DNA of 64,000 nt from Hyphomonadaceae bacterium ML37. GTDB taxonomy: Bacteria; Pseudomonadota; Alphaproteobacteria; Caulobacterales; Maricaulaceae. A program made the position numbers and the translations under genes. A model generated the notes under the pieces. That model was not told the DNA's origin. It saw only the letters and a program-made list of their open reading frames with translations, and did no database searches. Shown here piece after piece: positions 37,406 through 41,192 of the stretch (the stretch's first letter is position 1; each line of letters opens with the position of its first letter). The stretch is taken from NCBI GenBank assembly GCA_027627685.1, contig CP091241.1:2233191-2297190 (forward strand), given 5' to 3'.

Positions 37406-38751
37406 GGGCTGAGCGCCGCCCGCACCTCTTCTGCGGCCCGCTCGGCGGCTTCCAGCGCGCCTTCGAAATAGCCATAGCCTTCGCGGGCGGTCTCTGTTCC
37501 CGCCACGTGGATGGGGCCGATGGGGTCGCGCAATTGAGAGCCCAGCGTCGTCCACACGCCCGGCCCCATGAAGGCGGCGTAGCAGCCGCGGGTGTAGGGC
37601 TCGGACATCCAGTCCTGATCGGCATAGTCCAGTGGGTGGCGCGCGGCGTCGCCGAACACGGCGGCGAAGCTGTCCAGCACGGCGGCGCGCCGCTCGGCCG
37701 GGTCGCGGCCTGACCAGATCCGCGCCTCGTCGCCCTCGATAAAGCCCAGAAGCTGGCCCGCCTCGCGCCCGGCCTGCGTATTGTCGAAGGTCACGCGCAC
37801 CGGCGCCGGGCCGCCTACGGACTGACCCGACAGCCCCGCCTCGCGCCAGAAGGGGCGGTCATACTGGGCGACGCATTTGATGCACGCGCCCGCCGGCATG
37901 CGCCGCCACAGCGCGTCGCGCGCGGCGGGCAGCGGCGGATCGAAACGGATGCCCAGCGCCTGATTGGGCGGGAGTGCGAGAATGGCGCGGCGGGCGGAGA
38001 ACTCACCCGCCGGCGTCCATGCGGTCACGCCGTCATCGCTCCAGCGCAGGGCCTGCACCGGCGCGCCATAGGTGACGGCGCCGCCCAGACTATCGGCCAT
38101 TGCGTGCGCGAGACCGCCCATATCGCCATGCACCCGGTCCTGCTGGGCGCCGCCTGTCACCGAGATCAGGGCTTCAAATGACCGCCCCGCGCGGGCGTAG
38201 AACAGGGCGTGCAGCAGGGACAGCTCATGCGGTTCGGCGCAGAACACCGCGCCGATGGCGATGGCGAACATCTCTCTGGCGCGCGCGGTGAAGCCGCTGC
38301 GGGCCATGAAGTCAGCCACGGTGCGCCGGTCCCATTCCTCTGCTTTCGGGTGCGCCCAGGGCCGGGCGGGATCGAGCTGTTTCGCCATCGCCTCAAACCG
38401 CGCGAGCAGGCGGTTGAGGTCGAGGAGGACATGGACGGGCAGGGAGGGGATGGTCCCGCGATAGCGGCGCAGGCGTCCGCTGAACGCCACCAGATGATCG
38501 CCTTGATCCCAGAGCGGATAAGTGCGCGCGCCCATGGCCTCGATCAGGGCGTAGAGCCGGTCCTGGCCCGGCCCTGCCCACTGGCCGCCCAGATCCACCG
38601 TGTCGCCATTGGCGAAGGCGTGAGACAGGGCCCGTCCGCCGGGGCGTTCGCGCGCTTCGAGCACCCGTACGTCATATGTGTCCGACAAGAGCAGCGCGGC
38701 GTGAAGGCCGGAGAAGCCGACGCCGATGATCAGCACGTCGCTGTGCGTCAT
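37402..38751 (-). CDS. FAD-dependent amine oxidase
   Basis: A 449-residue flavin monoamine-oxidase-type enzyme. The Rossmann fingerprint IIGVGFSGLHAALLL sits at residues 8-22, with the second FAD motif ERPGGRALSH and LGGQWAGPGQDRL. The C-terminal FAD segment (GPIHVAGTETAREGYGYFEGA) is clear. It probably oxidises an amine or polyamine substrate; no substrate clue exists in the context. No signal peptide. Confidence 0.92.
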   Translation of the reverse strand: MTHSDVLIIGVGFSGLHAALLLSDTYDVRVLEARERPGGRALSHAFANGDTVDLGGQWAGPGQDRLYALIEAMGARTYPLWDQGDHLVAFSGRLRRYRGTIPSLPVHVLLDLNRLLARFEAMAKQLDPARPWAHPKAEEWDRRTVADFMARSGFTARAREMFAIAIGAVFCAEPHELSLLHALFYARAGRSFEALISVTGGAQQDRVHGDMGGLAHAMADSLGGAVTYGAPVQALRWSDDGVTAWTPAGEFSARRAILALPPNQALGIRFDPPLPAARDALWRRMPAGACIKCVAQYDRPFWREAGLSGQSVGGPAPVRVTFDNTQAGREAGQLLGFIEGDEARIWSGRDPAERRAAVLDSFAAVFGDAARHPLDYADQDWMSEPYTRGCYAAFMGPGVWTTLGSQLRDPIGPIHVAGTETAREGYGYFEGALEAAERAAEEVRAALSP

Positions 38752-38799
38752 GTCCCTTCCCCTTGCCGCTGCCCGTTCCGATCCCCGGGTAGCGCTCCG

Positions 38800-39327
38800 T
38801 CAGCCCAAAGGCTTGAGGTCGCGGGCATAGCGCGCGGCGTTCTCCACATAATGGTCAGCGCTGGCTTTCAGGAGTTCGGCCACGCCGTCCTCGATCTGTT
38901 TGACCACTTTGCCCGGCGCGCCCATCACCACCGAGCCGTCGGGAATCTCCTTGCCCTCGGTAATCAGGGCGTGGGCGCCGATGATGCAATTCCGGCCGAT
39001 TTTCGCGCCGTTGAGCACGGTCGCGCCGATGCCGATCAGCGTGTAGTCGCCCACCGTGCAGCCATGGAGCATGGCGTTGTGGCCCACCGTCACCCCGCGC
39101 CCCAGCGCCAGGGGAAAGCCCATATCGGTGTGCAGCACCGCCCCGTCCTGGACATTGGCGTCTTCGCCCAGCGTGATCATTTCATTGTCGCCGCGCAGCA
39201 CCGCGCCGAACCAGACCGAAGCGCCGCGCATCAGGGTCACCTTGCCGATCAGCGCCGCATCAGGCGCCGCCCAGGCGCCGTCCGGGCTGATCTGCGGCGT
39301 GTCTTCGCCGAGCGCGTAAAGGGTCAT
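38800..39327 (-). CDS. Gamma-class carbonic anhydrase-like hexapeptide protein
   Basis: A 175-residue left-handed beta-helix protein. Three metal-ligand histidines are conserved at His66, His83 and His88 ([14 protein letters not shown]), with hexapeptide repeats and a C-terminal helix. It belongs to the CaiE/YrdA/PaaY group, whose members bind zinc or iron and sometimes have CO2 hydration or thioesterase activity. Confidence 0.92.
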
Positions 39328-39521
39328 GGGCCGGTCTCCTCAAAATGCGTGTGTCCAGGGCTGTGTCTGCGGCGCCGCAGTTTTGCGACATGTCAGTGAA
39401 GCGGTGACTCATACTTCATTCACTGTCCTAGGATGAGACTGTGAGTGCGATTCGCGATCAAGGGCGCGATTCGCCTCGCGCGCAGGAGAACCCTGCGCCG
39501 GGATGCTGGAAAGGAGGGCCT

Positions 39522-39659
39522 ATGCCATCCGCACCGCCAAATCGGGTCGCCCCGCCGCCGTTTGTCGCGCCGGCCCCGGTCCGTACCCTTGAATGCGCCG
39601 CATCCATCACCCCTCCGCACCCGCGCGAGGGGTTTTTTCTTGCCAATTGGAGGGCCTGA
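39522..39659 (+). CDS. Possible leader peptide upstream of phoH
   Basis: A 45-codon ORF starting MPSAPPNRVAPPPF, very Pro/Ala-rich, preceded by AAGGAGGGCCT, a strong ribosome binding site. Its end (NWRA-stop) contains the phoH ribosome binding site and stops 1 nt before the phoH ATG. An intrinsic terminator lies inside it, so if translated it could control read-through into phoH. Alternatively the stretch 39328-39660 holds only a small terminated RNA. No homology is recognised. Confidence 0.4.
   Translation: MPSAPPNRVAPPPFVAPAPVRTLECAASITPPHPREGFFLANWRA
39610..39638 (+). terminator. Intrinsic terminator / attenuator in the phoH leader
   Basis: CCCCTC (39610-39615) pairs with GAGGGG (39627-39632), extended by CGC/GCG with one bulged C, followed by six T residues. 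It lies 23 nt before the phoH start and inside the leader ORF. Confidence 0.7.
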
Positions 39660-39660
39660 A

Positions 39661-40413
39661 ATGGGCAAGCGAGCCGTCAAACGCCGTCAGGGTGGATTTA
39701 ACGCCGAAGCCTATGAAGAGGAGAAAGTCCGAGCGCTCTTTCCCGGATCGGGATGGAGCCCGGACGAGACCGACCCCATGCGCGACCAGCGTTATATCAA
39801 GTCGGTCAAACCCCGCTCGGAAGGCCAGGCGGTCCTGATGGACGCGATTGACGCGCATAACCTGGTGCTGGCGCTGGGACCGGCCGGCACGGGCAAGACC
39901 TATCTCGCCGTCGCCAAGGCGGTCGAAGCGCTGGAAGCCGGCGATATCGGACGCATCGTCCTGTCGCGCCCGGCTGTGGAGGCCGGCGAATCCATCGGCT
40001 TCCTGCCCGGCGCCATGGAAGAGAAACTCGCGCCCTATCTGCGCCCGCTCTATGACGCATTGTCAGACCGGCTCAGCCCCAAACGCCTCAAATCGCTGAT
40101 GGCTGAAGGCCTGATCGAGATCGCGCCCATCGGCTATATGCGCGGGCGCACGCTCAACAACGCCTTCGTGGTGGTCGACGAGGCGCAGAACTGCACCTAC
40201 GCCCAGCTGAAAATGCTGCTCACGCGCCTGGGCTGGAACTCCACCATGGTGGTGACCGGCGACCCCGCCCAGACCGACTTGCTGCCCGAGCTTTCAGGCC
40301 TGAAACCGATCTCCGAACGCCTCGCCGAGGTGGATGATATCGCCGTCGTGCAACTCAAGCCCGAAGACATCGTGCGCCACCCGCTGGTCGCCTCGATGCT
40401 TGAAGTGCTCTGA
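39661..40413 (+). CDS. PhoH family ATPase
   Basis: A 250-residue P-loop protein of the PhoH/PhoH2-core family. Walker A is GPAGTGKT (near residue 77) and Walker B-like VVVDEAQNCT follows, with VTGDPAQTDLL typical of the superfamily-1 helicase-like fold. It lacks the N-terminal KH/PhoH-like extension of YbeZ, so it resembles the short PhoH type. GGAGG precedes ATG 39661. Its RNA-metabolism role is inferred from the family; ybeY is not adjacent. Confidence 0.92.
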   Translation: MGKRAVKRRQGGFNAEAYEEEKVRALFPGSGWSPDETDPMRDQRYIKSVKPRSEGQAVLMDAIDAHNLVLALGPAGTGKTYLAVAKAVEALEAGDIGRIVLSRPAVEAGESIGFLPGAMEEKLAPYLRPLYDALSDRLSPKRLKSLMAEGLIEIAPIGYMRGRTLNNAFVVVDEAQNCTYAQLKMLLTRLGWNSTMVVTGDPAQTDLLPELSGLKPISERLAEVDDIAVVQLKPEDIVRHPLVASMLEVL

Positions 40414-40483
40414 AAGGGGGTGGTTTGAACGCGGCGCCCACGCGCCCTGTCAGCGCTGATACAAAACGGTCGCCACTTCATGC

Positions 40484-40519
40484 AAGGCTCTCCCGGACAG
40501 TATCCGGGAGAGCCTTTTT
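40484..40519 (+). terminator. Strong intrinsic terminator after phoH
   Basis: A 14-bp perfect stem (40484-40497 with 40503-40516) and a 5-nt loop, followed by a T-run ending at 40519. It ends only 1 nt before the ATG of the next gene. Confidence 0.9.
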
Positions 40520-40520
40520 C

Positions 40521-41192
40521 ATGATCCGCACCCTCGCCGCCCTCGCCAGCCTGGCCGCCAGCGCCGCCACACCCGCCGCCGCCCAATTTCCCTCCGGCAC
40601 GCCGGGAGACGCGCCCGGCGCCTTTGTGCTCGCCATCATCGATGTGGAGACCACAGGGCTGGAGACCGGCCATCACGAGATGATCGATCTGGGCGCGATC
40701 TATACCGATCTGGACGGGACCGAGCTCGGGCGCTTCTTCGTGCGCATCCACCCGGACCATCCTGATCGCGCTGGCGAAATCGCCCGCTCGATCAATGGCT
40801 ATGACGAGGCGCGCTGGCAGGCGCTGGGAGCTTTGGATAAGGCCGACGCGGCCTCCGCCTTTCTCGCCTTTCACCAGGAAATGACCGGCGGGCGCACGGC
40901 CATCTTCACCGCCTACAATGCCTATTTCGACCGCGCCTTTCTGGACGTCTTTCTGAAAGACGCCGGTCATGACGGGTTTCGCGCGCTGTTCACCTATTTC
41001 CTGCTGGACCTGCCGTCCATGGCCTATGGCGCGGGCATAGCCGATCTGGCCAATGCGTCTGTCGCCGCACGGCTCGGCCTGCCCGCCGAGACCGATGATC
41101 CGCTCGAGCACACGGGATTGTCAGGCGTTGAGTGGAACCTGGCGCTGTACCGGGCGCTTGTCGCGCGGCGCCCGCCGGACGCGCCGGACTGA
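40521..41192 (+). CDS. DEDD-type 3'-5' exonuclease-like protein with signal peptide
   Basis: A 223-residue protein. Residues 1-22 look like a Sec signal peptide (hydrophobic core, cleavage after AAA-Q). The mature part is a DnaQ-like RNase-H-fold exonuclease with the DxE motif in IIDVETTGLE and a central Asp in YNAYFDRAFLD. The C-terminal motif keeps His (EHTGLSGVE) but has Gly where the HxAxxD aspartate is expected, with a Glu two residues on, so activity is uncertain. The ATG lies 1 nt after a strong terminator, with no room for a ribosome binding site. A TTG at 40425 is in frame but would read through the hairpin. Confidence 0.72.
   Translation: MIRTLAALASLAASAATPAAAQFPSGTPGDAPGAFVLAIIDVETTGLETGHHEMIDLGAIYTDLDGTELGRFFVRIHPDHPDRAGEIARSINGYDEARWQALGALDKADAASAFLAFHQEMTGGRTAIFTAYNAYFDRAFLDVFLKDAGHDGFRALFTYFLLDLPSMAYGAGIADLANASVAARLGLPAETDDPLEHTGLSGVEWNLALYRALVARRPPDAPD

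Follow-up and report, generated by a model that had tools for sequence, protein, structure and literature searches.

The window analysed here is a 64,000-nt stretch of the 3.04-Mb genome of Hyphomonadaceae bacterium ML37, whose same-genus relatives include Oceanicaulis strains. On the forward strand, positions 39661–40413 encode a 250-aa PhoH-family ATPase (Pfam PF02562, E = 3.8e-81). The product also matches NCBIfam PRK10536 (8e-61), under the curated cut-off of that family. A longer in-frame PhoH start, in a frame of 322 codons, was dropped, as its open length differs between relatives. A second PhoH paralogue, 51% identical, is present in the genome (G000:C1:293361-293969). The upstream neighbour of phoH is a gamma-carbonic-anhydrase-like gene on the reverse strand (38800–39327). 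Because this gene is divergent from phoH, the phoH transcript is expected to start within 39328–39660. On the 3' side of phoH, the interval 40484–40523 holds a strong inverted repeat and T run that end about 2 nt before an ATG at 40521. The next ORF, for which this ATG is a possible start, is exonuclease-like (weak NCBIfam matches), and the repeat lies inside a longer open frame from 40425. The repeat is probably the phoH terminator.

Between the two divergent genes, a leader ORF (uORF) of 45 codons, rich in proline and alanine, runs on the forward strand from ATG 39522 to TGA 39657–39659 and is translated as MPSAPPNRVAPPPFVAPAPVRTLECAASITPPHPREGFFLANWRA. It is preceded by the Shine-Dalgarno (SD) sequence AGGAGG (39512–39517, forward strand; anti-SD duplex −12.4 kcal/mol). 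Within the ORF and on the same strand, a terminator hairpin (39610–39632) is followed directly by TTTTTT (39633–39638). Codons 11–13 of the ORF (39552–39560) encode Pro-Pro-Pro, a candidate stall site about 50 nt ahead of the hairpin. A gap of 1 nt separates the stop codon from the phoH ATG at 39661, and the phoH SD, GGAGGG (39649–39654, forward strand), lies within the final uORF codons. This layout is congruent with the sequence-only reading, which had described a Pro/Ala-rich ORF at 39522–39659 with a strong ribosome binding site, a hairpin with six T residues inside it at 39610–39638, and a stop 1 nt before phoH with the phoH SD in the last codons. All of these coordinates are right, and the hairpin also appears in the minimum-energy fold of the leader.

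Folded alone, the hairpin has an energy of −17.3 kcal/mol. It is not listed by a strict consensus terminator scan of 38700–40700; in our view the reason is that the uninterrupted part of its stem has 6 bp and a loop region of 11 nt inside. The 241-nt phoH leader as a whole is no more structured than its shuffles (z = −0.75). When the leader DNA is searched against its own genome, only phoH and one gene-end terminator are matched. About 35 nt past the stop of a 348-aa ORF elsewhere in the genome, the hairpin sequence recurs as a near-copy (88% over 33 nt), in a position typical of an ordinary terminator.

For comparison, 178 phoH loci (L002 without phoH) were reduced to 158 non-identical leaders, 135 from the order (Caulobacterales) and 23 from other orders. 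Three loci with no start call (L135, L144, and L152) were dropped, and duplicates over the last 200 nt were merged. The loci are among the best matches listed in relatives, family, order, and class and are not a random sample. The orthologue is present in 56 of 137 family genomes (E 1e-80), 264 of 298 order genomes (1e-85), and 45 of 241 class genomes (1e-75). Since it is not universal, the leader counts hold among genomes with the gene.

A terminator, defined as a hairpin of −12 kcal/mol or lower that has a T tract after it and lies no more than 150 nt from phoH, is present in 124 of the 135 non-identical order leaders from these sampled loci, and this count is unchanged at each cut-off from −6 to −12 kcal/mol. 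The same criterion at −12 kcal/mol is satisfied by 29/474 dinucleotide-shuffled leaders, the stricter control, and by 2/606 windows located 500–1250 nt upstream, a lenient control that is probably mostly coding DNA. At −6 kcal/mol these numbers rise to 87/474 and 19/606. When the leaders are clustered at 65% identity, 57 groups result. The terminator is found in 51 of them, 46 have an SD-preceded ORF across it, and 38 of these 46 have the ORF ending near phoH or fused to it. Stem sequences vary between genera, so it is the terminator that is kept and not one particular sequence. The 11 order leaders in which it is absent by these criteria are seven from the Hyphomonadaceae group plus L019, L020, L024, and L029. 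Outside the order, a terminator is present in 14 of the 23 alphaproteobacterial leaders, so the attenuator may predate the order. Several of these other-order leaders (L129–L154) have an SD-preceded ORF across the terminator, for example L133 with SPPGS.

An SD-preceded ORF runs across both hairpin and T tract in 114 of the 124 terminator-bearing leaders; in the other ten, no ORF is found under the SD cut-off. Shuffling the part of the leader 5' of the hairpin gives such an ORF in 875/2480 cases (35%). The uORF ends within −20 to +12 of the phoH start in 92/124 leaders (null 14%). The commonest ends are +4 (an ATGA overlap, 47 leaders), +1 (a TGATG overlap, 13), −1 (11), and +8 (8), and in 11 terminator-bearing leaders the uORF is fused in frame to phoH. 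The hairpin begins a median of 100 nt after the uORF start codon in the 114 leaders and 87 nt after it here. Over the span that the uORF reads, the two alternative frames are free of stops in 73 and 70 of the 114 leaders. Openness alone is therefore weak evidence; open frames come cheap in GC-rich DNA. ORF and hairpin, whose conservation in close relatives was at issue in the sequence-only reading, are both kept across the order and partly beyond. At the level of sequence, the arrangement in the phoH leader is confirmed as real and as conserved to this extent.

The Hyphomonadaceae-type group departs from this pattern. In 7 of its 12 leaders there is no terminator, and in all seven the uORF is open in frame into phoH. 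As the 11 fused leaders above bear terminators, fusion alone does not mean terminator loss. Leader ORFs open into phoH, often without a terminator, are seen in the Hyphomonadaceae-type MAGs L086, L089, L102, L107, L114, L118, L123, L125, and L128. A recurring peptide is encoded in these fused ORFs, for example DFFDPPAAGRSR. It is possible that they represent an N-terminally extended PhoH.

The codon and proline tests used seven clades chosen by eye, comprising 84 of the 135 leaders from the order. Three called uORFs each from Brevundimonas, Phenylobacterium, and Hyphomonadaceae (nine in all) were left out by hand, and three Caulobacter loci failed the start pattern. Starts in Maricaulis and Caulobacter were motif-guided, which favours consistency there. 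Indels occur in multiples of three in 267/630 cases (42%) in the uORF and 45/450 (10%) in the 5' UTR, in pairs of leaders that share ancestry. L005 carries one extra C in a hairpin arm and has a different C-terminus, and the ORF stop is still 2 nt before phoH. The frame-0 pN/pS is 0.66 in the Oceanicaulis-type clade, 0.29 in g22, 0.63 in Maricaulis, and 0.77 in both Brevundimonas and Phenylobacterium, and in these five clades the other frames give 0.83–1.66. In Caulobacter (0.90) and the Hyphomonadaceae group (1.18), the other-frame values (0.90 and 0.98; 0.99 and 0.91) are like those of frame 0 or lower. These ratios suggest that the uORF peptide is under mild purifying selection at most, weak or absent depending on the clade. 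In many uORFs the T tract codes Phe-Phe and the phoH SD codes Trp-Arg. The sequence-only reading had called for codon-level conservation to be weighed against structure-level conservation. Frame and hairpin are both kept; constraint on the peptide, depending on the clade, is weak or absent. We read the frame being kept more than the peptide as pointing to selection on the passage of the ribosome.

One feature of the peptide recurs. A PPP or PPG motif ahead of the hairpin is present in 60% of the 84 uORFs. The corresponding values are 17% for codon shuffles, 11% for dinucleotide shuffles, and 6% and 11% for the two other frames. The motif is found in 85–91% of Oceanicaulis-type, Maricaulis, Caulobacter, and Phenylobacterium uORFs, in 33% of those of the Hyphomonadaceae group, in 6% of those of Brevundimonas, and in none of the five of g22. 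The Caulobacter leader L174 has PPR in its place. In the 49 uORFs with both motif and terminator, the last PPP/PPG lies 37–78 nt from the hairpin. The footprint of a ribosome is too small to cover the hairpin from a stall this far upstream, and a stall should therefore favour termination. A polyproline brake is a likely addition to the proposed attenuator in several clades.

The region upstream of the uORF is promoter-like. The putative −10 element, TAGGAT (39429–39434, forward strand), fits TANNNT. Of the 115 GATTCG-bearing leaders, 85 have this motif exactly 20 nt 5' of the first GATTCG and far ahead of the hairpin. The phoH transcript is predicted to start near 39441. No sigma-70-type promoter is found in 38700–40700 by a strict scan with an E. 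coli-type consensus. The sequence-only reading depends on a transcript start upstream of 39610, and a promoter-like −10 does lie upstream, as far as sequence can tell. The GATTCG element itself (39449–39454, forward strand), close to where the transcript is predicted to begin, is conserved at −300 to −120 of phoH in 115/135 order leaders and in 44 of the 57 leader clusters (65% identity). It is also a GANTC (CcrM-type) site; further GANTC-type sites are GACTC at 39406–39410 and a second GATTC at 39468. Its possible pairing partner is variable among leaders (by eye). GATTCG may be a methylation element, a GcrA-type promoter element, or an RNA motif at the 5' end. The pattern TG-N6-CGATTCG has six matches in this genome, phoH among them, compared with none for the reversed control pattern. 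Between GATTCG and the uORF, a 5'-UTR stem-loop, P2, is formed by GCGCAGG and CCTGCGC (39480–39498, forward strand). The best short hairpin lies at GATTCG +31 to +33 in all 14 same-genus leaders examined, a count with no null comparison, and paired changes are seen among them (GCGCC/GGCGC, GCACC/GGTGC, and GCGTC/GACGC). Many Caulobacteraceae leaders show, by eye, a pair of TTAA-like half sites that are spaced by 11 bp and overlap the −35 region. We take this pair to resemble a CtrA box, and it would fit the published status of phoH as a CtrA target.

That status is listed for phoH of Caulobacter crescentus (CC_2644/CCNA_02727), which is 44.56-fold up in carbon starvation and is counted among the transcripts with the strongest upregulation in that condition (PMC3073932). 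The gene is 10-fold up in a delta-ntrC mutant and returns to the wild-type level with added glutamine, an effect from which the authors infer no simple direct repression (PMC10274813). Copper stress in one cell type is reported to lower phoH (PMC8224329). In C. crescentus, phoH and a small hypothetical gene that precedes it, CCNA_03973, lie in one operon (PMC10274813). The annotation of this genome gained 94 CDSs from ribosome profiling, most of them small and some apparently leader peptides (PMC4117421), and from its number we infer that CCNA_03973 is one of them. The Caulobacter leaders in our sample include those of two named strains, and the C. crescentus leader is not singled out by name. 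A full-text literature search, whose coverage leaves out most subscription papers, found no description of attenuation in the phoH leader, and the passages covered in two Caulobacter papers naming CCNA_02727 or CC_2644 do not mention it. The PPP/PPG enrichment, the GATTCG element, and the published starvation induction in Caulobacter go beyond the Pro-rich ORF of the sequence-only reading.

The comparisons above suggest, with fair though far from full confidence, that transcription is attenuated in the phoH leader and that a close-following ribosome relieves this attenuation, in the working manner of pyrL-pyrBI. The translation-dependent attenuator put forward in the sequence-only reading is thus the explanation that we favour, and sequence supports it in part. 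RNA polymerase would start near 39441 and transcribe the leader, and a ribosome would initiate on the 45-codon ORF. If the ribosome lags, through slow initiation or a stall at PPP/PPG about 40–70 nt 5' of the hairpin, the hairpin would fold, transcription would stop at the T tract, and phoH would be off. If the ribosome is close behind the polymerase, when the polymerase is slow or pausing or when EF-P clears the proline stall, the hairpin would be blocked and phoH transcribed. On finishing the uORF, this ribosome would be at the phoH start codon, where it may initiate again. The steps that we infer are termination, its dependence on coupling, the role of EF-P, and the inducing signal, for which nucleotide or glutamine shortage, or starvation slowing the polymerase, are candidates. 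Expression of phoH may also be controlled at the promoter. A more specific version is put forward tentatively, as a possibility less probable than its opposite: the leader would be a natural coupling gauge in which the PPP/PPG stall keeps phoH off in fast growth, and ribosomes would catch up, turning on PhoH as an RNA ATPase, when starvation, glutamine shortage, or nucleotide shortage slows the polymerase or when EF-P capacity changes. If true, this would account for the 44.56-fold rise of C. crescentus phoH in carbon starvation as well as for its induction that glutamine reverses. Coupling control would fit the glutamine effect because nucleotide synthesis requires glutamine; promoter control could fit it too. 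PhoH is widespread and poorly understood, and the proposed attenuator is testable in a model bacterium by one start-codon mutation.

The arrangement could instead be a constitutive partial terminator. The small ORF would then be the first gene of a two-gene operon, the hairpin would set a low share of phoH transcription, and regulation would be at the promoter only (CtrA/NtrC, and others). This reading is rather unlikely. In its favour, C. crescentus phoH is a CtrA target with overlapping NtrC and GapR ChIP sites in its promoter (PMC3073932, PMC10274813), the promoter-like region is conserved, and the published induction could be wholly promoter-level. However, it gives no reason for an ORF that, in most leaders, crosses the hairpin and reaches as far as the phoH start, and the PPP/PPG enrichment is also left unexplained; a fixed terminator could stand after the small ORF. 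Chance coincidence of a hairpin and an ORF in GC-rich DNA can draw on the open alternative frames, but the conservation counts largely refute it unless they are grossly distorted by shared ancestry and best-match sampling, and it is hardly credible.

The consecutive proline codons are also compatible with a codon-starvation attenuator of the trp or mgtP kind, in which the ribosome stalls for want of charged tRNA-Pro and phoH is then turned on through an alternative structure; mgtP answers proline limitation through its proline codons (PMC3641672). The sign would be opposite, however, as a stall 37–78 nt upstream would leave the hairpin free. The motif is almost absent in Brevundimonas and absent in g22. 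Pairing of the hairpin 5' arm with the 60 nt upstream is 0.435 against a null of 0.448 (mean over 77 leaders; single-letter, not dinucleotide, shuffles), which argues against a trp-like switch, with values slightly above the null in Brevundimonas (0.62 vs 0.59), Phenylobacterium (0.63 vs 0.60), and the Hyphomonadaceae group (0.56 vs 0.48). A codon-starvation switch is very unlikely. A small RNA acting in trans, with a terminated 5'-end RNA of about 200 nt from the GATTCG region to the terminator as the main product, would make sense of GATTCG at the predicted 5' end and of the paired changes in P2. Against it, an SD-bearing open frame is kept along the RNA, an Rfam search of 39380–39720 returns nothing at E up to 5, and phoH, CCNA_02727, and CCNA_03973 do not appear in the main text of a Caulobacter Hfq RIL-seq paper (PMC12559287). 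Such an RNA is highly improbable as the main function. Relief of attenuation by a close ribosome remains the reading that we prefer.

Among known systems, the pyrBI attenuator of E. coli is not known to need a competing antiterminator, and its leader ORF stops near pyrB. The phoH leader shares with it a translatable leader ORF that spans an intrinsic terminator and, on average, the lack of a competing antiterminator, with the slight excess in some clades. In pyrL-pyrBI the intrinsic terminator likewise lies inside the leader ORF (135 bp there, 45 codons here), and read-through depends on a close ribosome (PMC5021804, PMC4824070). The phoH leader differs in serving another gene in another order, in having PPP/PPG in many clades, and in a stop at or overlapping the phoH start. 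In pyrBI, UTP acts through a U-rich leader stretch (PMC3641672). A U-rich pause tract before the hairpin is not found here, where T makes up 17% of this part of the uORF and the longest run is 3; in the 114 leaders, T is 21% of the uORF before the hairpin and the longest run is 5 or more in 10. Since this stretch is missing, membership of the pyrBI kind is not claimed, and the likeness is one of working only. The position of the hairpin also bears comparison. E. coli terminators that come within about 100 bp of the start of a coding region can still act, the ribosome having yet to catch up, and those placed later are repressed by ribosomes; the pyrBI terminator, in its 135-bp leader gene, is unrepressed at normal UTP (PMC4824070).

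Trp-type attenuators are a poorer match, as PPP/PPG is not universal and the average terminator/antiterminator signal is missing. The Salmonella mgtCBR leader ORF mgtP resembles the phoH uORF in that an ORF with proline codons governs transcription into the coding region; it differs in having alternative stem-loops and no stem-loop like an intrinsic terminator in the leader, with Rho suggested (PMC3641672). Within the same order, the Caulobacter ilv leader CDS combines a leader peptide with a rho-independent terminator, but it is described as sensing tandem Ile/Val codons through ribosome pausing (PMC4117421). The polyproline stall has its closest likeness in the EF-P reporter of Elgamal et al., in which a stall lies 5' of an in-ORF terminator: PPPPPP engineered before the pyrL hairpin in E. 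coli lowers expression 26-fold if EF-P is lacking and less than 2-fold if it is present (PMC5021804). That reporter is an engineered E. coli plasmid, and the phoH arrangement is natural and conserved with much the same geometry. The engineered EF-P/pyrL reporter would have a natural counterpart in a conserved in-ORF terminator combined with a polyproline stall.
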